A stretch of DNA of 43,670 nucleotides. It comes from Candidatus Aminicenantota bacterium. GTDB taxonomy: Bacteria > Acidobacteriota > Aminicenantia > JAMOAD01. Where the stretch lies: assembly GCA_027031485.1 (NCBI GenBank), contig JALVQI010000062.1:1-43670 (forward strand). The letters are read 5' to 3'. Under the pieces are notes generated by a model, which was not told the DNA's origin, ran no database searches, and saw only the letters and a list, made by a program, of their open reading frames with translations. Positions 197 to 43,165 of this stretch are shown piece by piece (within the stretch, counting starts at the first letter, position 1; each line of letters begins with the position of its first letter). The position numbers and the translations under genes were made by a program.

Positions 197-1126
197 ATGA
201 GAAGAATTAGTAAAATCGCCCCTCAGTGGTGGGATTATACCACCCTTGATGAAGAAATTTTAAGAGATGCTGCAAAATTAACGGTAAAGGATGTGGAACA
301 GCTTTCAAGACCGGGTTTCACTGTTAAATTCTATGATACAAGAGAATCCTTTTATTTGGCCGAAGCTCTTGAATATATACATGCATGGAAACAGGCAACA
401 GATAGTGAACCGGCAGGAATTGTTGGCCCAATCGGTCCTACGGAACAACTTCCTTTAGTTGCCCAGATAGTTAATGAAATCGGGCTTAATTTAAAGAATG
501 CACATTTCTGGGGCATGGATGAATGGGTTATAGACGGAAAAGAGGTTAGTATTGAGCATCCTTTGAGCTTTGCAAAAGCTGATATGGATCTTTGCTTTAA
601 CAGAATAGATAGAAAGTATGCAATGCCTGAAGAAAACATTCATTTTCCAAGCGTTGATAAAATAGAGGAATATTCAAAAAGCTACGATGAAATAAGAGTT
701 GTCCTGATGCAGGGTGGTCAGGGTGAAGTTAAGCATTGGGCTTTTAATGACCCCTTCAAAAGAGAAGGAAAATATAAGGATAATCCTCCAACTCCCGAGG
801 AATATTTAAAATTAAAAACCAGAGTTGTCGACTTACATCCTATGACACTTATTCAGAATGCCAGAACTTCTGCAGGTGGAGTGGTAAGCGATATACCAAC
901 GCAGGCAATTACAGTGGGACCGGTAGAAACATGGAAAGCTGAAAAGGTTTCAATCTGGCACTATGGAAATCATGATAATCCTTTTGGAATAAGACTTACA
1001 GCATTTATGATTTCAAAGAAAATACCTGATTCTTCAGTCCCAATGTCATTATTAGCTCTCCATCCAAATGTCCAATTCAATATTTACAGACCTGGATTAG
1101 GAGAAGTTGCAGTAGAAATGCATTGA
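197..1126 (+). CDS. Glucosamine-6-phosphate isomerase/deaminase-like protein (NagB family)
   Basis: [19 protein letters not shown] and the [16 protein letters not shown] motif typical of NagB-type sugar-phosphate isomerases; good RBS. Confidence 0.8.
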
Positions 1127-1159
1127 TTCAATAATAATAATTCATTTACGGAGGTTTAG

Positions 1160-1924
1160 ATGATTGTCTTAGCAGCAGGGGCTCATCCAGATGATATTGA
1201 GTTTATGATGGGCGGTACATTCATTAAATTAAAAGAAAAAGGATTGGAATTACACTATTTGAATATAGCAAATGGAAGTTGCGGAACTCAAGAGTATTCA
1301 AGAGAGGAGATAATAAAAATAAGAAGGGAAGAGTCTATTAATGCAGCAAAAATAGCCGGAGCCATTTATCATGATAGCCTCGTTGATGACCTTGAAATAT
1401 TTTATACTCAGGATTTGATTAGAAAGGTGGCAGCAATAGTCAGAGATGTAAAACCGGATATTATATTAATGCAATCACTTGAAGATTATATGGAAGATCA
1501 TATGAATGCCGCAAGGGTTCTTGTAACAGCAGCTTTTGTCAGAGGTATGCCAAATTATGCAACAAATCCTCCCTTTCCCCCTATAAACAAAGATGTTGCT
1601 TTATACCACAGTTTACCTCATGGATTAAAAACTCAGATGAGAGAAACCGTTTACCCTGATTTTTATATAAATGTTGAAAATGTGTTAGAAAAGAAAAAAG
1701 AGATGCTCTCTCAGCACAAAAGTCAGAAAGATTGGCTTGATAAAAGTCAGGGGATGGGATCCTATGTAAAAACAATGGTGGATATGACTGAGGAAATAGG
1801 GAAAATGTCAAAAAAATTCAAATATGCAGAAGGATGGAGACTTCACAATCACCTTGGATACTCATCAAAAGAAATCAACCCTCTTTGTGAAATATTAGAG
1901 GAGGATTGTCTTATCGTAAAATAG
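1160..1924 (+). CDS. PIG-L/LmbE family N-deacetylase
   Basis: N-terminal AAGAHPDDIEFMMGGT zinc-binding motif; EDYMEDHMNAARV motif; RBS GGAGG. Confidence 0.85.
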   Translation: MIVLAAGAHPDDIEFMMGGTFIKLKEKGLELHYLNIANGSCGTQEYSREEIIKIRREESINAAKIAGAIYHDSLVDDLEIFYTQDLIRKVAAIVRDVKPDIILMQSLEDYMEDHMNAARVLVTAAFVRGMPNYATNPPFPPINKDVALYHSLPHGLKTQMRETVYPDFYINVENVLEKKKEMLSQHKSQKDWLDKSQGMGSYVKTMVDMTEEIGKMSKKFKYAEGWRLHNHLGYSSKEINPLCEILEEDCLIVK

Positions 1925-1948
1925 AATAGGTAAAGCCAGGAAATCCAT

Positions 1949-4174
1949 ATGAAAAAAATACTTTTTTTTGTAATCTCAAGTATTATTATTCTGAATTTTT
2001 CTCTTTCAGAAACACAGCTAAATAAAAAACAGTCTTCCGTTGAAAAAAGAATCAATAAAATTCTATCAAAAATGACTCTGGAAGAGAAAGTCGGGCAGCT
2101 TGTTCAATTCAGTCTTAGTGGCTCCGGAAAAGAGTATAAGGAGAAAAAAGAGAAATACTTAACTCTCATTAGAAAAGGGTTAATTGGCTCTTTTATAAAT
2201 GTAAAAGGAGTAAAAGAGAGAAATTCAATACAAAAGGTCGCAGTGGCAGAAAGCAGATTGGGTATTCCCCTTATTTTTGGAATAGATGTTATCCACGGTT
2301 ATAGAACGATATTTCCCATACCCCTTGCGCAAGCAGCTTCATGGGATCTTGAACTGGTTAAAAAATCCGCAAGAATAGCTGCGATAGAGGCTACGGCAGG
2401 CGGTATAGATTGGACCTTTGCCCCAATGATTGATATTACAAGGGATCCAAGGTGGGGAAGAATCGCAGAAGGTTATGGTGAAGATCCATTTTTAGCTTCA
2501 AGGATGAGTTTTGCAGCAGTAAAAGGATTTCAAGATGAAGATATCTCCTCCCCTACCTCCTTAGTGGCGTGCTTAAAACACTATGTTGCCTATGGAGCTG
2601 CAATCGGAGGAAGGGACTACAATAGTGTTGATATATCTGAAAAAACCTTGAGGGAAATTTACCTGCCTCCTTATGAAGCGGGAATTAAGGCAGGTGCACT
2701 AACTGTGATGTCAGCTTTTAACAGCATCAATGGAATCCCAGCTTCAGCAAATTCTTTTACTTTAAGAAAAATCCTGAAGAATGAGTTTTCTTTCAAAGGC
2801 TTTGTTGTGAGTGATTGGGAGTCAATAAAGGAAACGATTAATCACGGTTTTTCAAAAAATGAAAAAGATGCAGCTTTAAAAGGATTAATTGCCGGAGTTG
2901 ATATGGATATGGTAAGCGGAGTTTACTTAAAATATTTACCGAAATTAGTAAGGGAAGGAAAAATTGATGAAAAAATTTTGAATGATTCCGTAAAAAGAGT
3001 TTTAAGAGTTAAAATATTAAAGGGGCTTTTTGAAAATCCTTACAAGAATGAGAAAAGGGCCGATGAAATTTTAACAAACGAAAAGAGAAATTTTGAAAGA
3101 AAGGTTGCTCAAAGGTCAATTATTCTTCTTAAGAATAAGAACAATGTTTTACCATTAAAAAAATTTCCTGAAAAAATAGCAGTTATAGGACCTCTTGCTA
3201 AAGACAAAAAAACTCCTCTCGGTTGTTGGTCTTTATACGGAAGATCGGAGGATGTTATATCTGCTTTTGAGGGAATAAAAAATAAAGTTAAGAATAGGGC
3301 AAAAATTTTCTATTCAAAAGGAAGCGAAATCCGTGGTTTTATAAAAGGTGGAATTGAAGAAGCAGTAAAAATCTCAAAGAACGCAGATATCGTTTTACTC
3401 TTCTTAGGAGACAATATCTCAGGAGAGGATGCCTCTTTAGCTCATCTAAAACTTCCCGAACCTCAATTAAAGTTGATTAGAGAAATTTCAAAAAATACCA
3501 GGTCACCGATCATTACTATTATTATAGATGGTAGACCCCGTCCGATTAATTCTATTATTAAATATTCTGACGCTGTTTTGCTTGCATGGTATCTTGGAAT
3601 AGAGTCAGGGAATGCAATAGCTGATGTCTTGTTTGGAGATTATAATCCTTCCGCAAAATTACCTGTAACAATTCCCAGAGCAATTGGCCAAATTCCGATT
3701 TATTATAATCATGAGAATACCGGAAGACCTTTAATTAAGAATAAACCAGGGAATTTTTCAAGATACAGGGATGAATCCAATGAGCCACTCTTTCCTTTTG
3801 GTTTTGGACTCAGTTATACAAAATTTTCATACAGTAATCTTAAAATAAGCCCTGAAAAGGCTCACTCCAATGGAAAAATAAAAGTCAGTGTTAAAGTTAA
3901 AAACACGGGTAATTATGATGGAGAAGAAATAGTTGAACTTTACATAAGAGATCTTGTATCAAGTATAATAAGACCTGTAAAAGAACTTAAAGGATTTAGA
4001 AAGATCAAACTAAAAGCCGGTGAATCCAGGGTTATCTCTTTCATTCTTGATGAAAAACTATTGGGTTTTCACTATAAAGGTAACAATATAACCGTAGAAC
4101 CCGGAAAATTCAAAGTCTGGGTGGGTCCCAACAGTCAGGAAGGTCTTGAAGGTGAGTTTACTATTTTAGAATAG
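1949..4174 (+). CDS. Glycoside hydrolase family 3 (beta-glucosidase-like), secreted
   Basis: Signal peptide; GIDVIHGYRTIFPIPLAQAASWD, DPRWGRIAEGYGEDP, GFVVSDWES (nucleophile Asp), C-terminal FnIII-like domain. Confidence 0.93.
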   Translation: MKKILFFVISSIIILNFSLSETQLNKKQSSVEKRINKILSKMTLEEKVGQLVQFSLSGSGKEYKEKKEKYLTLIRKGLIGSFINVKGVKERNSIQKVAVAESRLGIPLIFGIDVIHGYRTIFPIPLAQAASWDLELVKKSARIAAIEATAGGIDWTFAPMIDITRDPRWGRIAEGYGEDPFLASRMSFAAVKGFQDEDISSPTSLVACLKHYVAYGAAIGGRDYNSVDISEKTLREIYLPPYEAGIKAGALTVMSAFNSINGIPASANSFTLRKILKNEFSFKGFVVSDWESIKETINHGFSKNEKDAALKGLIAGVDMDMVSGVYLKYLPKLVREGKIDEKILNDSVKRVLRVKILKGLFENPYKNEKRADEILTNEKRNFERKVAQRSIILLKNKNNVLPLKKFPEKIAVIGPLAKDKKTPLGCWSLYGRSEDVISAFEGIKNKVKNRAKIFYSKGSEIRGFIKGGIEEAVKISKNADIVLLFLGDNISGEDASLAHLKLPEPQLKLIREISKNTRSPIITIIIDGRPRPINSIIKYSDAVLLAWYLGIESGNAIADVLFGDYNPSAKLPVTIPRAIGQIPIYYNHENTGRPLIKNKPGNFSRYRDESNEPLFPFGFGLSYTKFSYSNLKISPEKAHSNGKIKVSVKVKNTGNYDGEEIVELYIRDLVSSIIRPVKELKGFRKIKLKAGESRVISFILDEKLLGFHYKGNNITVEPGKFKVWVGPNSQEGLEGEFTILE

Positions 4175-8610: not shown

Positions 8611-9207
8611 TTAATTAGATTTAAAACTCAAAATCCTCCTTAATACCAGAACATTATCGTTATCAAAAGCTTTGAAAATACCGGTTTTCTTAATAAAGGA
8701 GACTATTTCATCCGAAGAGGATTCAATCAAAATCAAATCATTTTTTATTTTCCCTTTGAGTTTTCCCGAATTTATGGCTTTTTTGAAAAGTTTTTCAACA
8801 GGTAAAAAAACTTCAATCTTATTTTTATTCTTTTTAACCAAAAACCATAAAAATATATTCTGCTCTTCTTTTTTTACCTCTTTTTTATCCTTTTCATCAA
8901 ACTCACTTTTTAATATATTTAAAAAGAGTAATTTATCATCGGTAAAAAAAGAGGCTTTCATATTTGTTGTTTCCCAATCATTTTTATTCGTATTGACTGC
9001 TATAATTCTTATCAAATTCTTTTCCTCATCATCAACCCTTATAAAGAAAAATTGATCAGCTGTTTTTACATCCCTCCAGAGGCCATTCCATTCATCAGTT
9101 TTTAAAATAGAAGCCTTGTTTCCGAGCGGTTTTTCGCTACCGACAAATAAGCAAGAAGAAATAAGAAGGCCAATTAAAATTATCAAAAAATGCTTTCTTT
9201 TTACCAC
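8611..9207 (-). CDS. Hypothetical lipoprotein
   Basis: N-terminus MVKRKHFLIILIGLLISSC matches a lipobox; start abuts the upstream GH20 gene. Confidence 0.65.
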   Translation of the reverse strand: MVKRKHFLIILIGLLISSCLFVGSEKPLGNKASILKTDEWNGLWRDVKTADQFFFIRVDDEEKNLIRIIAVNTNKNDWETTNMKASFFTDDKLLFLNILKSEFDEKDKKEVKKEEQNIFLWFLVKKNKNKIEVFLPVEKLFKKAINSGKLKGKIKNDLILIESSSDEIVSFIKKTGIFKAFDNDNVLVLRRILSFKSN

Positions 9208-11732
9208 TACTCTATTTTATCTTTATAAATTTCAAAAATCGGTACAAAGTTTCCTTTTATCAGATAGGCTTTTTTTATAACAACAGGTTTTACAGGAGTG
9301 TGAAAGGCTATCTTTTTCTCCTTGTCCAGAAACTGTTTTTTTACCTCAACATTCCCGATATTTTCAAGAACATCATAACCTTCTATTAATTGTCCGAAAA
9401 CAGTATATTTGCCATCAAGATGGGGTCTCGGCACAAGGCAGATGTAAAATTCCGTGGAACCACTGTCAGGATTACTATCCCTTGCCATTCCGACGGTTCC
9501 CACAAGATGCCTGTGAAAATTAAACTCAGCCTTTACGGTTTTATAATTGGTTCCCTCACCGTCTCCCGCTTGAATAACATGCCCTTTAACTACCCTGTAA
9601 AATCTCTTTCCATTGTAAAATCCGGTTTTTATCAATTCTTTAAACTGGGCTATATGAAGAGGAGCCTCCTTTTCATAAAATCTCATAACCATCTTTCCCA
9701 TATTTGTTTCAAGAACAGCAAGTTCCTTCTCCCTTTCATTGTAAAAGGCAAGATCTTTTAAAGCCGGATAGATGGCTATTCTAAGCTCGGCGATATGCTT
9801 TGAAGCTTCAGTAAATACTTCATCCCTTTTTCTATCAAGCTCAGGTGAAAATTCCTTACTCATTTCAGCATATTCAAGAGAGCTTAATGCCATTTTTGAT
9901 GTATTAATCAAATTATCCGTAAGAGGCAAAAGCTCCTTTATCGTAGCATTCTGAGCAGCTTTTATTTTCATCTTTTTTGAAATATCTATGATATGATTGA
10001 GCTCCGCTTTAATCTTTTCAAGATCCTCTTTTTTACCCTCTTTTAAAAATCGTTGAACAAGGAATTTGAAATTAACCGAAGCTTCTGGATCCGGGATTGC
10101 CGCATCCACGGTCCTTGTTAATGGCCAGAATATATTGTACTTTGTATACCAGTGTCGTTTGTAAACCATTATGGGTTCAATGTATCCTAAAAATTCTTTT
10201 AAAAGCTTCACATCTTCGGAATTAAGAAGATTTCTCAATAAAGCCTCCTGATTTTTTATATGCAATGTACCAAGATTTTCAAGCATTAATGAGACTTTCC
10301 ATAATCTATTATACATAAAATTCAAATCTTTCACATCAGAAGATGACCAGAGTCTTTCGGCAATCGCAGCAGTTCTCGGCCAGATTCTTGAATCAACAAT
10401 ATTGTTGTTTACAAGCTCAGCCCACATGGTAGCCTCACCACCTAAAATTCTGGACTTTTCTTTCTCCGTTAAGTTTGCAGATTCCGGAATTGGATCATTC
10501 GTATAGTGGTATGAGGTGGGCTGTAATAAATCAATATAATAGCCATTTGATAAAATTGTATAATAACCTTCTTTTGCACCTTTGATGAGAGCCTTTTTCC
10601 CTCTCCATGAGTGTATAACCACATCCTTCGGAAGTCCGGGACCATAGATTTCATCCCATCCTATCATCTTTTTGTGATATTTTTTTAAAATCTTAAGGAT
10701 TTTTCTATTAAAATAAACCTGAAGTTCCTCAAGAGTCTTAATCTTATGTTTTTTCATAAATTTCTTAATCTTTTCACTCTTTTTCCATTGAACACCATCT
10801 ACCTCATCACCACCAATATGAATATATTCATCGGGAAAGAGTTTTGCCATTTCCCTGAAAAATTTTTTTAAAAATTTGTAAACCTTTTTGTTTGACGGAT
10901 CAAGAACAGGGTTAAAGACTCCGTAGTCCCTTCGCATTTTATAATCACCCGGTAATGATGCAAGCTCAGGATATGCCACAATCCAGCTATAAGTGTGCCC
11001 CGGTATGTCAAACTCAGGAACAATTCTTATTCCAAGAAGGTCCGCATATTCAATGATCCTTTTCATCTCTTTCTGGGTATAATAGAGACCGTCCGAAGCT
11101 TTTTGATAGAGTTTCGGAAACTTTTTGCACTCCAATCTGAATCCCTGATCATCACTCAGGTGAAAGTGTAAAACATTCATTTTAACAAGCGCCATACCTT
11201 TCAGATTCCTTAAAATCATATCAACCGGCATAAAATGCCTTGATGTGTCAATTAAAAGTCCGCGCCATGAGAATCTTGGCCAATCATCTATTTTTACAAA
11301 GGGAAAATAGAATCCCACCGAATCCATTGAAAATAGCTGGTAAAGTGTAAAAATTCCTCTGACTATACCAATATCTGTTTTTGCTTTAAGTCTAATTCCA
11401 TTTTTATCAATGCTTAACTTATAAGATTCATCCATCTTGGGAGAAAGCTTTACTGATTTTTCATAAAAAATATCAATCCTTGTTAATTTGCTATCTCCTT
11501 CCTTTACTAAAAATCCTGTTTTATAAGAGAGAAATTTTAAAAATTCATCTTTATTGTAGAAAACTCTTCTGCTGTAAGGGCCTTTGATATTAATTCTAAA
11601 ATCTGTAGTAATATAGTATTTTCCTGATCCCGGTTTTATCTTTTGAGGATATGGCATAAGGTTTAAGGTATTTGAAAATAATGGAAAAACTAAAATAAAA
11701 AATATAAATGTGTAAATTATCCTCTTTTTCAT
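9207..11732 (-). CDS. Secreted GH20 beta-N-acetylhexosaminidase with C-terminal cyclophilin-type peptidyl-prolyl isomerase domain
   Basis: Signal peptide; WRGLLIDTSRHF, VPEFDIPGHTYSW, HIGGDEVDG (GH20). C-terminus FYNGKRFYRVVKGHVIQAGDGEGTNYKT...AEFNFHRHLVGTVGMARDSNPDSGSTEFYICLVPRPHLDGKYTVFGQLIEGYDVLENI is cyclophilin-like. Confidence 0.92.
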   Translation of the reverse strand: MKKRIIYTFIFFILVFPLFSNTLNLMPYPQKIKPGSGKYYITTDFRINIKGPYSRRVFYNKDEFLKFLSYKTGFLVKEGDSKLTRIDIFYEKSVKLSPKMDESYKLSIDKNGIRLKAKTDIGIVRGIFTLYQLFSMDSVGFYFPFVKIDDWPRFSWRGLLIDTSRHFMPVDMILRNLKGMALVKMNVLHFHLSDDQGFRLECKKFPKLYQKASDGLYYTQKEMKRIIEYADLLGIRIVPEFDIPGHTYSWIVAYPELASLPGDYKMRRDYGVFNPVLDPSNKKVYKFLKKFFREMAKLFPDEYIHIGGDEVDGVQWKKSEKIKKFMKKHKIKTLEELQVYFNRKILKILKKYHKKMIGWDEIYGPGLPKDVVIHSWRGKKALIKGAKEGYYTILSNGYYIDLLQPTSYHYTNDPIPESANLTEKEKSRILGGEATMWAELVNNNIVDSRIWPRTAAIAERLWSSSDVKDLNFMYNRLWKVSLMLENLGTLHIKNQEALLRNLLNSEDVKLLKEFLGYIEPIMVYKRHWYTKYNIFWPLTRTVDAAIPDPEASVNFKFLVQRFLKEGKKEDLEKIKAELNHIIDISKKMKIKAAQNATIKELLPLTDNLINTSKMALSSLEYAEMSKEFSPELDRKRDEVFTEASKHIAELRIAIYPALKDLAFYNEREKELAVLETNMGKMVMRFYEKEAPLHIAQFKELIKTGFYNGKRFYRVVKGHVIQAGDGEGTNYKTVKAEFNFHRHLVGTVGMARDSNPDSGSTEFYICLVPRPHLDGKYTVFGQLIEGYDVLENIGNVEVKKQFLDKEKKIAFHTPVKPVVIKKAYLIKGNFVPIFEIYKDKIE

Positions 11733-25225: not shown

Positions 25226-28200
25226 GTGAAGAAATTAAAAAAAGTATTAATTGTTGATACGGATCAAAAATTTATAAAAAATCTTGAAAACTTTTTTTCA
25301 TCCTATGGTATAGAAACAATAATAGCAGAGGATGGAAACAAAGCACTGGAAATTGTTGATGAATCTTTTGATGCAGTCATTTCAGAAATCGTAATTCCTA
25401 AAATAGACGGATTAAAATTATCTAAAACAATTTACACAAAATTTGGCTCTGATCTTCCAATTATTATAGTGTCGGGAATTTATAAAGGTTCCTCTATTAA
25501 AAATAAAGCTCTTAAAGTTAACAAGGCTTCCGTCTTCCTTGAAAAACCCTTTTCTATCGAAATACTAAAAAAGGCAATAACAGAAAACCTTAACTTTGAA
25601 CTGAAAATAACTGAAGAGGTTGAAGATGAAGGAGAAACTCAGATTTTTGAAAAAAATGATAGTGAAAAAATAATAGGAAAAGAATTAAGCGAGAAAGATA
25701 AAAAATTACTAAGTTCAAATGAACTTTTCGGAGACATTTTAAATGATATAAACAAACAGGTGGAAAAAGATTTTGAAAAAGTGCATAAAAAACAAGATGC
25801 GAATGAAACAATATTAGAAGAAATAGAAGAAATAGAAGAAATAGAAGAGATAGAAGAGATAAGGGAAATAGATGAAGAACCAGTAGAAGCAAGCGTCAAA
25901 CAGAACAAAGAAATTTCAAAAGAAAAAGAGAAAGAACAAAATTTAAAACAGATTCAAAAAAATTCTCATCATCATAAAATTGAAGACACTCTTGATATAG
26001 ATAAACTTATAACGGATATTGTAAAAGAAAAGGAAAAACCAAAAGAGAACATAGAATCTGAGCGTAAAAAAGAACTAAAAGAAGAAAGAACAAAAAGAAA
26101 TATTGAAACAGATGATATTGATAAATTAATAAGAAAAACGTTAGTTGAGTTGAAAAAAAAGGGAAAAATAAAGTCATCAATGGAGAAAAAAACAGGAGTA
26201 AAAACAGAAACAGCTTTACATGACAATACAACCCAACAATTTAAAGAAGAAAAAATAAAAGAATTAGAACAAAAAAAGGAAGAAATAGAAAAAAACATAG
26301 AAAAGGTTGAAGGGAAATATGAACTTTTAAAAAAAATAGCTACGGGTGGAATGGCGGAAATTTACAAAGCCAAACAAAAAGGGCCATCAGGTTTTGAAAA
26401 AATTGTAACTATAAAAAGAATTCTTCCCCATCTTGCTCAAGACGAGGATTTCATTACCATGTTCATCGATGAAGCAAGGATAGCAGCTTCCCTCTCCCAT
26501 CCGAATATTGTTCAGATTTTTGATCTTGGAAAGATGAACAATCAGTATGTCATTGCTATGGAATATGTTTCCGGAAAAGACCTCGGAGCTATTCTAAAAA
26601 GTTTAAGAAAATTAAAAAAGAGTTTACCAATAGACATCGCCCTTTATATAGCTTTAAAAATAAGCGATGCGATAGATTATGCACATAAGAAAAAAGATTC
26701 TAATGGAGTACCTCTGAAAATTGTTCACAGGGATGTTAATCCTAACAATATCCTTATTTCTTATGAAGGAGAAGTTAAGTTAACAGATTTCGGTATTTCA
26801 AAAGCCAGAATAAAACTTCACCAGACAATAGCAGGAGGTTTAAAAGGTAAACTAATATATATGTCACCGGAACAGGCAAGTGGTAAAGAAGATGTTGACA
26901 ACAGATCAGATATATTTGCAATAGGTGTTCTACTCTATGAAATGCTCACACTTAGAAATCCTTTTATAGCAACTTCCGAAACAGCTATTTTAGAAAAAGT
27001 AAGAAATGTAAGGTATGAACCTCCGAATCTTTTTAATAAAAACATTACACCAAATACTTTAAATATAATTAAAAAATGTTTGATGAAAAATCCGGGAGAC
27101 AGATTCCAGAGTGCGAGAGAGCTCAGAGATGAAATTGAAAAAGAATTGGTAAAAGAGGTAAGTAATATTGCCATTATGAAGGATATACTTGCGAAATTCA
27201 TGGCAAGACTATTTCCGGAAGAGGTGAAAAAAGAAGGTTTCTCAATAGAAGATACAAGTGAAATAATAAAAAAGAAAATGGAAATTGATAAAATAATTAA
27301 AAAGAAAGAATCTAAAGAAGCAAAAGAACAAATAAAAAAGGTCGAAGAAATTAAAGAAGAGGAACCGGTAATCAAAGATAAAAAAATAACAATTGAAAAA
27401 GATAGATCAAAAAATATAGAAGGAGTAAAAAAAGAAAAAGAACCCGGGAAAAACGAACCTGTAAAAAAGGACAAAAGGACTAAAGACGAAATATTAGAGG
27501 AAATGGAAAAAATCTTAAGGGAAGAAAAATCTTCTTCAAAGGCATTTCTCATATTCATTATAATCTTGATACTCCTGGGAGGAGCCGGATACTTTTTTTA
27601 TACCAATTATCTATCAATTAAAGAGTTTCCCCGGAATTATGCATCTAAAAAAAGTAATCCGCAAATAAATCAAAATAAAGTAGCTATTCCAGAAAACACT
27701 CAAGAAAATAAATTAGACCAACAAACTTCTGAGCAAATAGATAATCAAACAACAAACCAGACATCTACTGATAACTCACAGAACCAGGTTAATAATAATC
27801 AAATCCAGACTAATAATCCACCTGTCCCAAAACCTAATCCGAATAATAGTAATACTAAAAATATAAATTCTCAAACCAATCAGAAAAAAGCTACTCAAAC
27901 TCAAACAAAGAAAAAAAACACACCCCAAACAAATAAAAGTTTAAATAATAATAATAATAATAAACCAAAAAAAACCACCGAACAAAAAAATATTCAGAAC
28001 CAGACAACAAAAACTCAAACAAAAACTACTCCGCCAGCTACAGTTACTACAAACAACAAAACCACAACAAATCAATTAAATAATCAACAAACTTCACAAA
28101 AACAAAAAAATCAGACAAAAACTCAAAATTTAAAAGCTCCGGAGAATCAAGAAAAAAAACCTCAACAACAAACTGTTCCTGCCTTTAAAGAGGGAGATGT

Positions 28201-28486
28201 GGTTCCTATCTCAACCCTTGATTCTCCTATTAAAATTTTAAAAAAGGCGGTTCCCACACTAACCTATGAAGAAGCAAGATTGGGAAATGTAAGAGTGATA
28301 ATAAATATGCTTGTAGGTGTTAATGGGAGAGTTGAGAAATTTAGAGTAATAAGAACCATCCCCCCTATTCCGGGTATTGATAAAAAAATTTCGGAAGTGA
28401 TAAAAGGCTGGAAATTTAGTGTACCTAAAAGAGAAGGGAAAAAAGTAAGAGTCTGGAAAATAGTTTCTTTATTAATAAAAAAATAA
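25226..28486 (+). CDS. Receiver domain - charged linker - Ser/Thr protein kinase - TM - Q/N-rich region - TonB C-terminal domain fusion
   Basis: N-terminus KKVLIVDTDQKF...DAVISEIVIPKIDG...LEKPF (REC). Kinase YELLKKIATGGMAEIYKAK, VTIKRI, IVHRDVNPNNILIS, LTDFGISKA, MSPEQASG, RSDIFAIGVLLYEML. TM AFLIFIIILILLGGAGYFFY. TonB_C VPTLTYEEARLGNVRVIINMLVGVNGRVEKFRVIRTIPPIPGIDKKISEVIKGWKFSVPKREGKKV. Confidence 0.92.
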   Translation: MKKLKKVLIVDTDQKFIKNLENFFSSYGIETIIAEDGNKALEIVDESFDAVISEIVIPKIDGLKLSKTIYTKFGSDLPIIIVSGIYKGSSIKNKALKVNKASVFLEKPFSIEILKKAITENLNFELKITEEVEDEGETQIFEKNDSEKIIGKELSEKDKKLLSSNELFGDILNDINKQVEKDFEKVHKKQDANETILEEIEEIEEIEEIEEIREIDEEPVEASVKQNKEISKEKEKEQNLKQIQKNSHHHKIEDTLDIDKLITDIVKEKEKPKENIESERKKELKEERTKRNIETDDIDKLIRKTLVELKKKGKIKSSMEKKTGVKTETALHDNTTQQFKEEKIKELEQKKEEIEKNIEKVEGKYELLKKIATGGMAEIYKAKQKGPSGFEKIVTIKRILPHLAQDEDFITMFIDEARIAASLSHPNIVQIFDLGKMNNQYVIAMEYVSGKDLGAILKSLRKLKKSLPIDIALYIALKISDAIDYAHKKKDSNGVPLKIVHRDVNPNNILISYEGEVKLTDFGISKARIKLHQTIAGGLKGKLIYMSPEQASGKEDVDNRSDIFAIGVLLYEMLTLRNPFIATSETAILEKVRNVRYEPPNLFNKNITPNTLNIIKKCLMKNPGDRFQSARELRDEIEKELVKEVSNIAIMKDILAKFMARLFPEEVKKEGFSIEDTSEIIKKKMEIDKIIKKKESKEAKEQIKKVEEIKEEEPVIKDKKITIEKDRSKNIEGVKKEKEPGKNEPVKKDKRTKDEILEEMEKILREEKSSSKAFLIFIIILILLGGAGYFFYTNYLSIKEFPRNYASKKSNPQINQNKVAIPENTQENKLDQQTSEQIDNQTTNQTSTDNSQNQVNNNQIQTNNPPVPKPNPNNSNTKNINSQTNQKKATQTQTKKKNTPQTNKSLNNNNNNKPKKTTEQKNIQNQTTKTQTKTTPPATVTTNNKTTTNQLNNQQTSQKQKNQTKTQNLKAPENQEKKPQQQTVPAFKEGDVVPISTLDSPIKILKKAVPTLTYEEARLGNVRVIINMLVGVNGRVEKFRVIRTIPPIPGIDKKISEVIKGWKFSVPKREGKKVRVWKIVSLLIKK
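25817..25861 (+). repeat. 9-bp in-frame tandem repeat (5 units, EEI)
   Basis: (gaagaaata)3(gaagagata)2, encoding EEIEEIEEIEEIEEI. Confidence 0.9.
27944..27961 (+). repeat. (AAT)6 microsatellite encoding poly-Asn
   Basis: Six AAT codons in the Q/N-rich region of the kinase fusion. Confidence 0.9.
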
Positions 28487-28501: not shown

Positions 28502-28738
28502 ATGGCCGAATTAAGCAAAGAACAAAAAGAATTTTACAACAACACATTAAATCAAACAAGAGAGCAGATCAAAGCAATTGATCAACAAATTGAAGAAGAA
28601 ATTGAGAATTTTAAAAAAAAGATGGAAGAATTAAAGAGCAAGAGAAAAGTCATAAAACAGATTTATGATGGAGCTGCAACCCTTCTTGGAGTCCCCGATG
28701 AATTTGCCGATGAAGAGGAGGAAGCAGAAGAAATTTAA
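28502..28738 (+). CDS. Small coiled-coil protein, 78 aa, unknown function
   Basis: RBS AGGAGAGG before ATG; heptad-like E/K-rich sequence; sits between two co-directional genes with the next start immediately after its stop. Confidence 0.7.
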   Translation: MAELSKEQKEFYNNTLNQTREQIKAIDQQIEEEIENFKKKMEELKSKRKVIKQIYDGAATLLGVPDEFADEEEEAEEI

Positions 28739-37876: not shown

Positions 37877-39517
37877 TTATTCCAAATAGTTTTTTATCAA
37901 TACTACAGATGGTTTGGGACTTTGTTTCTTAAAAAAATAAGGGACATAAAAATTCAACTCTTTTTTTGCTTCAGACCGATTTTTATACAGTCCCCAAAAA
38001 ACAGCATAACAAGATCTCCCTTTAATCTTTCTCTTTACTATAAATAACTTTTTGCTAAACCCCCCTTTTATAAAAGCATTCTTAACCGAATCAAGCAAAC
38101 AATCTACTTCAAGAAGGATAGAATAATCAGCATTAATCTGCTTTAAAGCCAATTGATATTTTTTGGCAGCAAGACTAAACCTTTTATTTCTAATCAAAGA
38201 AGTGTAATCAGGAAGAATATTTCCCTTTACGATACCTCGGCTTGGGGAAATGAAATTTTTTTCCTCTTTTTTGGAAGGAGTTTTAACTTCCGACTTTTTC
38301 TCTTTGTCTGTTTTTCTTTCAAGATTCTGGATTTTTTTCAATTTTCTTTCCTTCGGGTTTTCTTCTGTTTTCTCTTCCACTTTCGGAATACTCTTCATTT
38401 TAACCTTATTGTCCTTGTAATTATCAACAACAGGTTTTACAGGTTTTTTCTTTACTTTTATTATTTTAGGCTCATTTATCTGTAATACTTTTTCCCGGGT
38501 TAAAAGTTTATTTTTCAAATAAAATATAGCCCCTACAATTATTACAATAAATACAATACCAATTAGAATCAACCATTTTTTAAATTTTAATTCTTTTTCT
38601 TCATCGGCAAACTCATTATTTTTATTGAAAATTTTTTCTTTTTCCCTATCTTTTGTTACCTCTTCACCGCTATCAACTTCCCCGCTCTCCACGAAAATTT
38701 CACTCTTACTCTCCTTTTCAATTTTTTCAAAGGCTTTATCCGTCTCTACATCATCTGTTGAGAAGATGGATGAAAAATCTACTTCAGCCTCTTCTTCTTC
38801 GGAAATAATTTCTTCTTCAAAGAGTGAGTTCTTCTCATTATACTCCTTTATCGCCCCGATAACTTTTAAAAATAGAAGAATTTTTAATGCTTCAAACTCT
38901 TCATAGGGAGACTTTCTTATTAATTCAAAAAGGGAAGTTTTATCCTCCAATTTGTCCAAAATGGAATTTTCTTTTTCTCCGATATAATCACTGTATTCAC
39001 TATCTCCCCTCTCATACAATGTTTCTAAACTCCCGATAAGGGTTGCTATTAAGACTCTATCATTAGATTGATAAATTCCCTCTTTTATCAGCCGGGGAAT
39101 CTCTATATTTAAAGGTGTGATATTAGATGGAAGTTCTTCTTCAAAAAATCTGAATTCTCCATCTTTAATAAACAAAACAGAAAAAAAAATCATCTTCTGC
39201 TGTTTTTCCACAAGTTTTGTAAGCTGCATCGGGGTAAGGTATCCTCTATTAACAAATATTTTTCCCAAAGATTCTCCCGGCACAAGATTATTCACGACAT
39301 CTTCTATATATTCCGGGGAAAGGGTCCCAGAAGAGGATATTACATCAAGAAGACGTTCTCCTTTTAAATTTGAATGGCCATAGGCGAATTTTCCCTGTAA
39401 AAAATACAATATCCTTAAAGTTTCACCTTTTTTTACATACAGTGAACCGGTCTTTTTATTTTTCTCTATAAGAAAAAAAGTATAAAAATTATTAAGCGTA
39501 GTATTATTTTCCATCAT
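37877..39517 (-). CDS. DUF4388/PATAN-like N-terminus - TM - charged linker - SPOR-like C-terminus protein
   Basis: GSLYVKKGETLRILYFLQGKFAYGHSNLKGERLLDV; TM WLILIGIVFIVIIVGAIFYL; C-terminal CYAVFWGLYKNRSEAKKELNFYVP; start overlaps the previous stop (ATGA). Confidence 0.68.
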   Translation of the reverse strand: MMENNTTLNNFYTFFLIEKNKKTGSLYVKKGETLRILYFLQGKFAYGHSNLKGERLLDVISSSGTLSPEYIEDVVNNLVPGESLGKIFVNRGYLTPMQLTKLVEKQQKMIFFSVLFIKDGEFRFFEEELPSNITPLNIEIPRLIKEGIYQSNDRVLIATLIGSLETLYERGDSEYSDYIGEKENSILDKLEDKTSLFELIRKSPYEEFEALKILLFLKVIGAIKEYNEKNSLFEEEIISEEEEAEVDFSSIFSTDDVETDKAFEKIEKESKSEIFVESGEVDSGEEVTKDREKEKIFNKNNEFADEEKELKFKKWLILIGIVFIVIIVGAIFYLKNKLLTREKVLQINEPKIIKVKKKPVKPVVDNYKDNKVKMKSIPKVEEKTEENPKERKLKKIQNLERKTDKEKKSEVKTPSKKEEKNFISPSRGIVKGNILPDYTSLIRNKRFSLAAKKYQLALKQINADYSILLEVDCLLDSVKNAFIKGGFSKKLFIVKRKIKGRSCYAVFWGLYKNRSEAKKELNFYVPYFFKKQSPKPSVVLIKNYLE

Positions 39518-40788
39518 AGATTCCTTGTTAATGTTGCTCCCCCACCCGTTGAGAATAATCTAAGAGTTTTAACTTCACAATTAACAGAGTTATTGTTATA
39601 AATAAAAAATGGTGAAGAGCTGTTTTTTATCATAGGAGTGGGCCCTAATACTCTCACACCATTTGAGTCAAAACCTTCAAGATAAAGATCAAACTTCGGG
39701 TTTTCTCCATTAACATTTAAATTAGAATCCACTTTAAGATCCAAGGTACAAGTTCCTCCTCCACTTCCTCCGCAGCACAAAGGATAACAACCTGTCATTA
39801 TACAAAACCACATCCATACAGGACTTGTTCTGCATTTTTTCATGTTGGGAAGACAACATATTTGAGCACATAAGCCAGTGCATGTATTTACAGGGCAAAC
39901 AGAGGCTGAGCTGAAATTTATTTCCTTTATATTCAAACTCTCAAAAGTTGAATTAAGCTTTATAAACTCATTTTCTGCAATACCTGAATTAAATGTTGAA
40001 ACAAAACTCTTAACAACACCTAAAACTGCACCGGTATCATTTTCAAGCTCAACCACAATAATCCTTTTTCCAACAGGCACTGTAAAACTTGCCGGATTTG
40101 TGAAATCAGATTCAAGAAAGGAAACATTTCCAGAGGCGGGATAATAAACAGTATATTTTATATTAACGATCAGTTTTTCATCAGATCTTACAGATAATGT
40201 CCTAAAATCCTTTGTTGAAAATATAGTATTAATGGAATTAGCTCTATCAACAATTAGTGGAATTTGAGGATAATAGATGTTATCTCTGTTTTCGATGATA
40301 CTTTTGTCTAAAGGATTGGTGGAATTGTATGCTCCATCTTTCCCTGAAGACATTAAAAACCAGCGACACTTTGCATCTGAATTATCGCAGGGAGAATTAG
40401 AATTAACTTTTAAAAAAAATTGTAAATAATAGTTTCCATATGGGTCTATAATTCCCGAGGAATCACTGTTTCTAACAGAAATATAGGGACCTCGCCATCC
40501 ATAATAAACTCCGCTCCCCACAAGTGCTTCCAGAGGAGATGGCTGAGAGCCTTGAATATAAAGGTCTTTCAAATTTTGTGGGAACACTCCCATATCCCCT
40601 ATATAACCAAAGTCCTGCTTTAAATCTCCTAATATAGCATCATAAATTAATCTTAACTCTTTTTTAGCATAAGCTTCCCTTTTAAAATCTTCTGACTTAA
40701 ATACGAGAGGTGCCATTATAGCGGCCAAAATTGAAATAACAGCTACTACTATGATTATTTCAATTAATGCTAAACCTTTATTTTTAAT
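39514..40788 (-). CDS. GspG-like pseudopilin with Cys-rich insertion; start extended to a probable ATT at 40788 (or CTG at 40809)
   Basis: In-frame upstream of the track ORF: (I/M)KNKG|LALIEIIIVVAVISILAAIMAPLVFK prepilin signal; WRGPYISVRNSDSSGIIDPYGNYYLQ; MSSGKDGAYNS. Confidence 0.8.
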   Translation of the reverse strand: MKNKGLALIEIIIVVAVISILAAIMAPLVFKSEDFKREAYAKKELRLIYDAILGDLKQDFGYIGDMGVFPQNLKDLYIQGSQPSPLEALVGSGVYYGWRGPYISVRNSDSSGIIDPYGNYYLQFFLKVNSNSPCDNSDAKCRWFLMSSGKDGAYNSTNPLDKSIIENRDNIYYPQIPLIVDRANSINTIFSTKDFRTLSVRSDEKLIVNIKYTVYYPASGNVSFLESDFTNPASFTVPVGKRIIVVELENDTGAVLGVVKSFVSTFNSGIAENEFIKLNSTFESLNIKEINFSSASVCPVNTCTGLCAQICCLPNMKKCRTSPVWMWFCIMTGCYPLCCGGSGGGTCTLDLKVDSNLNVNGENPKFDLYLEGFDSNGVRVLGPTPMIKNSSSPFFIYNNNSVNCEVKTLRLFSTGGGATLTRNL

Positions 40789-41915
40789 TAAAGGTTTCTT
40801 AGGATCCAGGCGCCACCTCCCGTTGAATAAAATCTAATAGTTTTAATTCCACAAGGACTTTTTGTTATACTATATCTAAAATGGGGAGCTGAGCTATACT
40901 TATTCATTCTTTCAGGTCCCCAAATCTTTTCTCCACTTGAATTATAACCTTCAAAATAGACTTCAAAACCCGGAGTCTGATTAATATTTCCTCCGCTACA
41001 ACTATTTGAATTCTTATTGAAAGAAGAATTAAGCGAAAAAGATGAAGGAAGATCGCATCCTCCATAGTTAATGTTCAAATTGCAAAAACTCTCATAAACA
41101 GCAGGAAAACTAATTTTTTGAGATTTCGGTGTAAATGGAAGTAGCTTAACTGTATTTCTTACAGCAGAACCTGTAATTTCAGTCCCATCATCAAGAATAA
41201 ATAAAGAATCGATCACCCTTTGTCCTACTGTGGCACTATAGAAGAGTCCTCCATTCCCGATTCCCGTTCTAATATAAGAAGAACCATTTCTCACATCATA
41301 AAATATAAATTTAACCCTTGTCGGCGAAATATCAGAACCGGAAATCTCAGCCTTTAAGTTCAATGTAGTCATTATTGTGTAATAGGTATTTCCTGATACC
41401 GTATATGTATTCAAAGAGAGTGGTTGAGCGGGATAGTATAGATTATCCCGGTTAACAGTTGCATTCGGATTTGAATTATCAAATTGTCCATCTTTACCGG
41501 TACAAACAAGCATCCATTTGTTAGATTGTCCCCATGCATTAAAAACCTGAATATAATAATTCCCCCAAGGATCAATAATTCCGGATGTATCACTGTTTGT
41601 AACAGAAACATAGGGGCCATCCCATCCTGCAAAAACGCCGGAACCCGAAGGATTTTCGGTTTTTACCGGTTGTGAGGATTGTATGTAAAGTTCAGAGAGA
41701 GGATCAGGGAATCTTCCCATATCCCCAACATATCCGAAATACTCCTTCCCATCTCCTAATATTGCATTGTATATTGTTTCAAGCTCTCTTTCAGCTCTTT
41801 TGTATCTGGAAGCCTCTGTTGTTTTGTAGATAAGAGGACTCATTAAACCTGCTAAAATCGCAAGTATGGCAATTATTATAATTACCTCAATTAAACTCAT
41901 TCCTTTTTTCATCAT
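40788..41915 (-). CDS. GspG-like pseudopilin with large C-terminal domain
   Basis: MMKKG|MSLIEVIIIIAILAILAG; WDGPYVSVTNSDTSGIIDPWGNYYIQ; CTGKDGQFDNSNP. Confidence 0.88.
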   Translation of the reverse strand: MMKKGMSLIEVIIIIAILAILAGLMSPLIYKTTEASRYKRAERELETIYNAILGDGKEYFGYVGDMGRFPDPLSELYIQSSQPVKTENPSGSGVFAGWDGPYVSVTNSDTSGIIDPWGNYYIQVFNAWGQSNKWMLVCTGKDGQFDNSNPNATVNRDNLYYPAQPLSLNTYTVSGNTYYTIMTTLNLKAEISGSDISPTRVKFIFYDVRNGSSYIRTGIGNGGLFYSATVGQRVIDSLFILDDGTEITGSAVRNTVKLLPFTPKSQKISFPAVYESFCNLNINYGGCDLPSSFSLNSSFNKNSNSCSGGNINQTPGFEVYFEGYNSSGEKIWGPERMNKYSSAPHFRYSITKSPCGIKTIRFYSTGGGAWILRNL

Positions 41916-41916
41916 T

Positions 41917-42510
41917 TCACTGTATTGAATATCCTATATCATCTTCAGCAGGGTGAAGACTTGTCCCTTCAAAATTAGTGTCCATTAATTTATTTGTTCC
42001 GGCTGAAATTACCCATACCTTCTTAGTATTGTCCGGTGAAGCTGCACCTTGAAGATATTCAGCATTAATCAAATAGGGCATTCCCCAGGGATCAAGTTTA
42101 ATCTCAGTAAGATACGGACCTCTCCAGCTTGGTAGATTATGAGGGTTGGGATCTCTTTTTGTGTATGAATTATTAACATTTACCAGCTCCCACCATAAAC
42201 TCTCATTTGGTGTCCTATTCCAACTACTAATTCCATTGTTCGAAGGAGGAATAATAGAAGTGTCAGGGTCAGGGCTTGTCCCTATTAACAACCTAACCCT
42301 ATTACCGTTTCTATCCACCACAGGCCAATATCCCATATCCTCTCTGCACTGTATCATTACCTTTCCAATTGCACTTGTATCATTTTTTGCTTTTGCTATT
42401 TTAGAATCATTAATGTTTTTTATAATCGACGGAACAAGCACCACTCCCAGAATTGCTATTATTGATAGCACAACCATTACTTCTATGAGGGTAAAACCTC
42501 TCTTGTCCAT
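41917..42510 (-). CDS. GspG-like pseudopilin
   Basis: MDKRG|FTLIEVMVVLSIIAILGVVLVP; WRGPYLTEIKLDPWGMPYL; SAGTNKLMDT...EDDIGYSI. Confidence 0.92.
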   Translation of the reverse strand: MDKRGFTLIEVMVVLSIIAILGVVLVPSIIKNINDSKIAKAKNDTSAIGKVMIQCREDMGYWPVVDRNGNRVRLLIGTSPDPDTSIIPPSNNGISSWNRTPNESLWWELVNVNNSYTKRDPNPHNLPSWRGPYLTEIKLDPWGMPYLINAEYLQGAASPDNTKKVWVISAGTNKLMDTNFEGTSLHPAEDDIGYSIQ

Positions 42511-42515
42511 TTTAT

Positions 42516-43148
42516 TTACTTAATTCTCACTCCAATGTCATCACCTGCGGTAGCCGGTGTGGTCGTTCTATAATCCTGCCTAAATGATGTTTGAGCTACC
42601 TTGTTAGGACCAGCTGATAACACAAAAACCGCATAGTATTCATAATTTCCGCCAGTATACCAGAGGCTAATAACATTGGAGGAATAAACCACTCCCCATG
42701 GATCCGCTTTAAGATCCGTAAGATAAGGACCATTCCATTTTAACTCACCTGTAGTTTGATAAGCTGTTCCTCCCGGTGTTCCATTTGTTCCGGGCTGGTT
42801 TCTCATCAAATGATTTTCAAATATATCCTTTCTTCCGCTCCAAACAGCTGTGCTTTTCCCCCAAAATCTGGAATAACCGCCCGAATTCATGTCATTAGCT
42901 GTCGTTGGGCCATATAAGATATAAAGATAATCCGGATTTCCCGAAGTCCCGTTCGAAGTGGGCCACCTTCCGGTATCTTTGAAAAACGATGCCATAGCCG
43001 CACCCATAACCTGAACTTCATTTTTTGCTCTTGCGACTTTAGAATCATTGATATTTTTCATTATAGTTGGTGTCAGAATTGCGGCTAATATAGCAACCAC
43101 AGAAAGAACAACCACCATCTCAATAAGAGTAAAACCTTTTTTATTCAT
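42516..43148 (-). CDS. GspG-like pseudopilin
   Basis: MNKKG|FTLIEMVVVLSVVAILAAILTP; WNGPYLTDLKADPWGVVY; SAGPNKVAQT...GDDIGVRI; SD GGAGGTG before ATG at 43148. Confidence 0.92.
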   Translation of the reverse strand: MNKKGFTLIEMVVVLSVVAILAAILTPTIMKNINDSKVARAKNEVQVMGAAMASFFKDTGRWPTSNGTSGNPDYLYILYGPTTANDMNSGGYSRFWGKSTAVWSGRKDIFENHLMRNQPGTNGTPGGTAYQTTGELKWNGPYLTDLKADPWGVVYSSNVISLWYTGGNYEYYAVFVLSAGPNKVAQTSFRQDYRTTTPATAGDDIGVRIK

Positions 43149-43165
43149 TTTCACCTCCACCTTGA

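Follow-up and report, generated by a model that had tools for sequence, protein, structure and literature searches.

In the window (the whole stretch of 43,670 nucleotides analysed here), a single gene encodes a 1086-amino-acid (aa) protein that, judging from profile searches, relatives and structure models, joins five parts in one chain: a receiver fold, a Hanks-type kinase, a transmembrane (TM) helix, a disordered spacer and a TonB C-terminal (TonB_C) fold. We tentatively favour reading it as a receptor-like transmembrane Ser/Thr kinase of Acidobacteriota that carries TonB_C on the outside and would act within an envelope-coupled complex laid out like a PASTA kinase. The gene, its parts and the small gene behind it are as follows:

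25226..28486, + strand: kinase-TonB_C gene, 1086 aa (pseudo-receiver, Ser/Thr kinase, TM, TonB_C); open frame with class orthologues at 29-64% identity
25244..25579, + strand: aspartate-less receiver, residues 7-118; Pfam Response_reg 1.4e-16, modelled as (beta-alpha)5 at pLDDT about 90
25385..25387, + strand: Glu54, at the phospho-acceptor position of the family alignment
25724..25741, + strand: linker motif LFGDIL, residues 167-172, in a predicted helix (164-183); class alignment and phylum survey
26138..26152, + strand: linker motif TLVEL (TLSGL in most relatives), residues 305-309, with T305 nearly invariant in the alignments
26318..27112, + strand: Hanks-type kinase, residues 365-629, with K397, H501-R502-D503, N508 and D521-F522-G523 intact; Pfam 4.9e-41 and invariant columns
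27536..27610, + strand: single TM helix without His, residues 771-795, as a helix in the model
27611..28180, + strand: disordered N/Q/T-rich spacer, presumably periplasmic, residues 796-985; pLDDT <50 over most of its length, composition following G+C
28181..28483, + strand: TonB C-terminal domain with the preceding EGDxVP motif, residues 986-1086; Pfam, orthologues, profile, AlphaFold2 and Foldseek
28502..28738, + strand: predicted coiled-coil partner, 78 aa, 15 bp 3' of the kinase stop, with a strong ribosome site (AGGAGAGG) and conserved linkage

The frame opens with a GTG codon, with an AGAGGT-like ribosome site just 5' of it. A Pfam search of the protein placed Response_reg at residues 7-118 (E = 1.4e-16) and Pkinase at residues 365-629 (E = 4.9e-41), both over cut-off, and TonB_C at residues 1023-1077 under cut-off (E = 0.0069; 17.3 bits against 24.6). 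In the full-length model the receiver fold is confident and the kinase partly so, with a patchy N-lobe; the TM helix (771-795) and the TonB_C domain are also modelled, and the regions between domains are disordered. This model agrees with the topology proposed in the original prediction, which put the kinase on the N-terminal side of a single TM helix and TonB_C beyond it. We rejected an assembly join of two genes because a genome of the same genus (G002) carries, on one 63-kb contig, a 65%-identical ORF that is collinear over residues 1-1086.

The TonB_C-like C-terminus, sub-threshold on its own, was settled by the agreement of four other lines of evidence. All 23 aligned class orthologues matched TonB_C (best 9.3e-19); a profile built from 45 family domains found TonB among PDB structures (best 1xx3, 6e-13); AlphaFold2 modelled the domain on the family alignment at pLDDT 91.9; and the best Foldseek matches of that model were TonB C-terminal domains, for example FoxA-bound 6i97_D (TMt 0.78). 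On these sequence comparisons and models a TonB C-terminal fold is present, and with it the claim that all three domains share one chain was borne out. The spacer in front of the domain varies from 53 to 362 residues (median 152) in 53 relatives. Its richness in Q, N and T had been singled out and is present, but it is not a special feature: N+Q content drops as locus G+C rises (r = -0.61 in 53 relatives) and so reflects the AT-rich genome (locus G+C here 0.30).

In TonB energy transducers, an N-terminal TM helix with an SxxxH-type His couples to ExbB. Here the helix is internal, lying behind 770 cytoplasmic residues, and carries a His in 0 of 53 relatives, whereas in the control, a TonB/TolA-like protein that the same genome encodes beside ExbD and TolB-like genes, the TM contains SIIFH. 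No ExbB or ExbD gene was found adjoining the 25226-28486 gene; a canonical TonB, three ExbD and six Plug-domain receptors are encoded elsewhere in the genome. While the protein shares the TonB_C fold, a disordered spacer and a single TM with TonB/TolA energy transducers, it departs from them in the place of the helix, its missing SxxxH-type His and its neighbours. Identity as a canonical TonB was therefore rejected on the TM test, and the missing His together with a canonical TonB set elsewhere makes ExbB-driven motion of the kinase-TonB_C protein unlikely.

The N-terminal domain had been taken for a two-component receiver. It has the (beta-alpha)5 fold of a response regulator, and its phospho-acceptor Asp is replaced by Glu54. 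Among relatives this position holds E, A, S, T, R or N, with Asp in only 2 of about 53. Most retain the first acidic residue along with the Thr/Ser and pocket Lys, and 48/51 share a conserved loop of Y-K-G type following strand 4. A receiver fold without the Asp defines an aspartate-less receiver (ALR), a class that is frequent in Acidobacteria and in which Glu is the commonest substitute (PMC4395418). Because the phospho-acceptor is missing, we rejected a working receiver; by alignment and model, the domain is an ALR and not a two-component input. A Glu at the phospho-site can mimic phosphate and often does not, so constitutive receiver activity should not be assumed. Like FrzS, RitR and ChxR, the domain combines a receiver fold with loss of the phospho-Asp (to E, S, A, N or T in such proteins) and mostly keeps the acidic triad-1 and pocket Lys; unlike them, it is joined in one chain with a Ser/Thr kinase and TonB_C arm and has the conserved YKG loop after beta-4.

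The kinase is probably active and of the HRDx[S/T/N]P type. It has the catalytic Lys, HRD Asp, Asn and DFG Asp of a Hanks-type Ser/Thr kinase, and these residues (K397, D503, N508 and D521) are invariant in an alignment of 34 relatives. The catalytic loop does read HRDVNPNN, as first described, but a lysine-less loop proved no rarity, since Ser, Thr or Asn takes the Lys place in 70/74 related kinases. Outside the phylum, the kinase domains of named genomes that come closest are HRDxSP-type kinases of Myxococcota. These dominated our named-genome scan, which returned the Holophagaceae relative L107 and nothing from the window's own class; they differ in that the family profile detected TonB_C at 0 of that scan's 80 best loci.

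Two linker motifs, (I/L)FGD(I/L) and TLSGL, are conserved in kinase-bearing members. Kinase-less members lack the TLSG motif and, in all except L266, the FGD motif, from which we infer that the linker motifs serve the kinase. The full-length model does not place them against any domain (pLDDT about 35-53 there; pTM 0.43). Thr305 might, at a guess, be a phosphosite and a candidate for autophosphorylation; the genome encodes seven FHA proteins that could read phospho-Thr.

The coiled-coil ORF is the next gene after the kinase in every class orthologue with enough sequence. Across the phylum it was found in 139/396 genomes, nearly always as a single copy. Its product has no Pfam family above cut-off and, against the PDB, resembles only generic coiled coils. 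It persists where the kinase, receiver or TonB_C has been lost.

We compared 60 related genomes for the class and 396 for the phylum. Orthologues occur in class families f1, f2, f4 and f5, and the full receiver-kinase-TM-TonB_C order stands upstream of the coiled-coil ORF in 16 further phylum families. The expectation that few homologues would share the full architecture was therefore wrong: by these comparisons at least 20 families of the phylum carry it, and modules appear to have been gained or lost between lineages. Among 40 loci centred on the coiled-coil ORF, the upstream gene belongs to the kinase-TonB_C family in 36. These comprise receiver-kinase-TM-TonB_C (16), receiver-TM-TonB_C without kinase (7), kinase-TM-TonB_C (4), kinase without TonB_C (4, Holophagaceae-like included), receiver-kinase without TonB_C (3) and TonB_C without a front domain (2, one cut by a contig end). 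The Holophagaceae record L107, from the named collection, has the kinase and no TonB_C; between its kinase and the one of L242, in phylum-set family f31, identity is 80%, which makes Acidobacteriota the most likely phylum, and the class may be Aminicenantia. At L266 (4309-7590), some 600 residues of low-complexity, very acidic sequence stand in place of the kinase, with the receiver, LFGDIL, TM and TonB_C kept.

The genome also encodes a pseudokinase paralogue of 627 aa, on contig C50 and unlinked to the main gene. It aligns with the kinase-TonB_C family over its whole length (E = 3.6e-64) and keeps the TM, TonB_C and a TFNL motif; HRD and DFG are lost, or appear as HNL/HGF and NFG/NYG in relatives. 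Sisters of this kind occur in class families f1, f4 and f5 and phylum-wide, and none was found in class families f3 and f8, in which the kinase domain is lost. Outside the class, TM, TonB_C and TFNL were present in 16/16 sister loci examined, all in genomes positive for the coiled-coil ORF, and in the three loci read over their full length neither HRD nor an intact DFG motif is left. Co-occurrence of sister, coiled-coil ORF and kinase may come partly from shared descent. A search for conserved neighbours of the pseudokinase across the phylum found none except mltG (YceG, E about 1e-79), which adjoins the gene in four families (4/20 loci) and is not adjacent to it in the window's genome; the adjacency is a hint toward peptidoglycan. 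At L038 (3-4467, contig C50 of G000), a Ser/Thr kinase-TPR gene immediately precedes the pseudokinase-TM-TonB_C gene, an order that recurs in G004 (L302), and at L320 (1543-5600, contig C60 of G239) two tandem pseudokinase-TonB_C genes directly follow mltG.

As a receptor-like kinase, the protein would extend across the periplasm by means of its spacer of about 190 residues, so that TonB_C could dock, with no need of ExbB/ExbD energy, on a partner associated with peptidoglycan or the outer membrane. Such contact would alter the pairing of the kinase, either with another copy of itself or with its pseudokinase sister, and thereby change its activity, as in PASTA kinases. Inside the cell, the ALR and the coiled-coil protein would be phosphorylation-independent regulatory or scaffold parts, and the linker Thr a candidate autophosphorylation site. 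The idea of coupling the cytoplasm to the envelope, put forward in the original prediction, is upheld. Signalling could run outside-in or inside-out, and outside-in would fit at least as well; inside-out control of an envelope machine, the direction first suggested, is possible. Counting against the receptor-like kinase reading, the neighbours of the main gene are housekeeping genes (accD, folC) with no named envelope machine among them. A broader and more doubtful proposal is that the Acidobacteriota have an envelope-spanning complex of their own, in which an active kinase and a pseudokinase share TonB-type periplasmic arms, with the ALR and the 78-aa coiled-coil protein as scaffold. Such a complex would be a diderm counterpart of the PASTA kinases, with the TonB fold serving as a probe or grip and not as an energy transducer.

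The main rival of the sensor-kinase mechanism, which we consider unlikely, is an inside-out tether in which the cytoplasmic pseudo-receiver, coiled coil and kinase direct where and when the TonB_C arm grips an envelope partner, the kinase being an optional local regulator. GltG (PglI) and GltJ (AgmX) of Myxococcus xanthus gliding would be its likeness: they too have a cytoplasmic signalling domain, one TM, a flexible spacer and a TonB_C-like periplasmic end, and GltG, built as FHA-TM-TonB_C, interacts with the motor protein AglR and is required for gliding (PMC3169522). A TonB-like pulling mechanism has been proposed for both (PMC9389320), and the receiver-TM-TonB_C forms without kinase retain the coiled-coil partner, as a tether might. 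However, the catalytic residues are strictly retained wherever the kinase is present, Holophagaceae retain the kinase and not the TonB_C arm, the TM lacks the SxxxH-type His, and we recognised neither gliding genes nor AglRQS-like or ExbB genes near the main gene. The cytoplasmic part also differs, being FHA in GltG and receiver plus kinase here, where Pfam found no FHA domain in the 1086-aa protein. GltG and GltJ lie in gliding clusters, whereas a glt/agl neighbourhood is absent here, with the 78-aa partner and the pseudokinase sister found instead. Since some lineages do without the kinase and Holophagaceae do without TonB_C, either module can be spared, and a scaffold or tether accounts for this as well as a sensor kinase does: the kinase-less lineages favour the tether, and the TonB_C-less lineages, along with the strictly kept catalytic residues, favour the kinase.

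The receptor-like kinase reading takes its layout from the PASTA kinases PknB, StkP and PrkC, which likewise combine a Hanks kinase, a juxtamembrane segment, one TM and an extracytoplasmic ligand-type domain. The NCBIfam PASTA-kinase model was the best match by score, at 246.9 bits under a cut-off of 450. The differences are that Pfam found no PASTA repeats in the 1086-aa protein, which has TonB_C instead, and that there is an extra pseudo-receiver, a diderm host and a pseudokinase sister. A more specific version, in which the kinase and pseudokinase complex governs peptidoglycan synthesis through MltG and partners, much as StkP and PknB do in monoderms, would draw on this layout and on the mltG neighbour of the sister gene in four families; we judge it improbable, as that adjacency may be a single inherited event and is absent from the window's genome, and the PASTA domain is missing.

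Lastly, a TonB paralogue energised by one of the ExbB/ExbD sets to open TonB-dependent receptors, with kinase input modulating uptake, would suit the true TonB_C fold and the three ExbD and six Plug receptors of the genome, but is very improbable given the His-free TM helices, the lack of ExbB/ExbD beside the gene and the dispensability of TonB_C in some lineages.

Kinases of the receptor-like kind, TonB_C proteins that bear cytoplasmic domains, and ALRs all have precedents; what appears new is their fusion, together with the small partner and the pseudokinase twin. The literature searched, from whose coverage most subscription papers fall outside, yielded no kinase-TonB fusion in Acidobacteria, and neither that literature nor the 80 kinase loci that came closest in the named-genome scan contained a receiver-kinase-TonB_C fusion with such a partner and twin. 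TonB_C is usually read as the energy-coupling part of nutrient uptake, and here it caps a Ser/Thr kinase, and likewise its dead sister, on the outer side. The TonB_C-ended kinase is found across a phylum that is large and little studied, and its conserved partner gene could easily escape annotation. It offers a concrete three-gene system for testing how diderms couple cytoplasmic Ser/Thr phosphorylation to the cell envelope, and the gain and loss of its modules, in which kinase or TonB_C may go and the partner stays, provide natural experiments. Genes of this kind should not be annotated as TonB or as response regulators.

Several other genes of the window were recorded in passing. The gene at 37877-39517 (- strand) encodes a DUF4388 protein (2.5e-14) with what looks like one TM and a C-terminus that may be SPOR-like, a further arrangement of cytoplasmic signal, TM and periplasmic binding; type II secretion or pilus pseudopilin genes lie beside it at 39514-43160. 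At 9207-11732 (- strand), an 841-aa protein appears to be an unusual fusion of a family-20 beta-hexosaminidase (Glyco_hydro_20, 4.3e-96) and a cyclophilin-type peptidyl-prolyl isomerase (8.3e-37). A putative glucosamine-phosphate isomerase, a PIG-L-type deacetylase and a family-3 glycosidase, as read from the sequence, stand together at 197-4174, which suggests amino-sugar breakdown.
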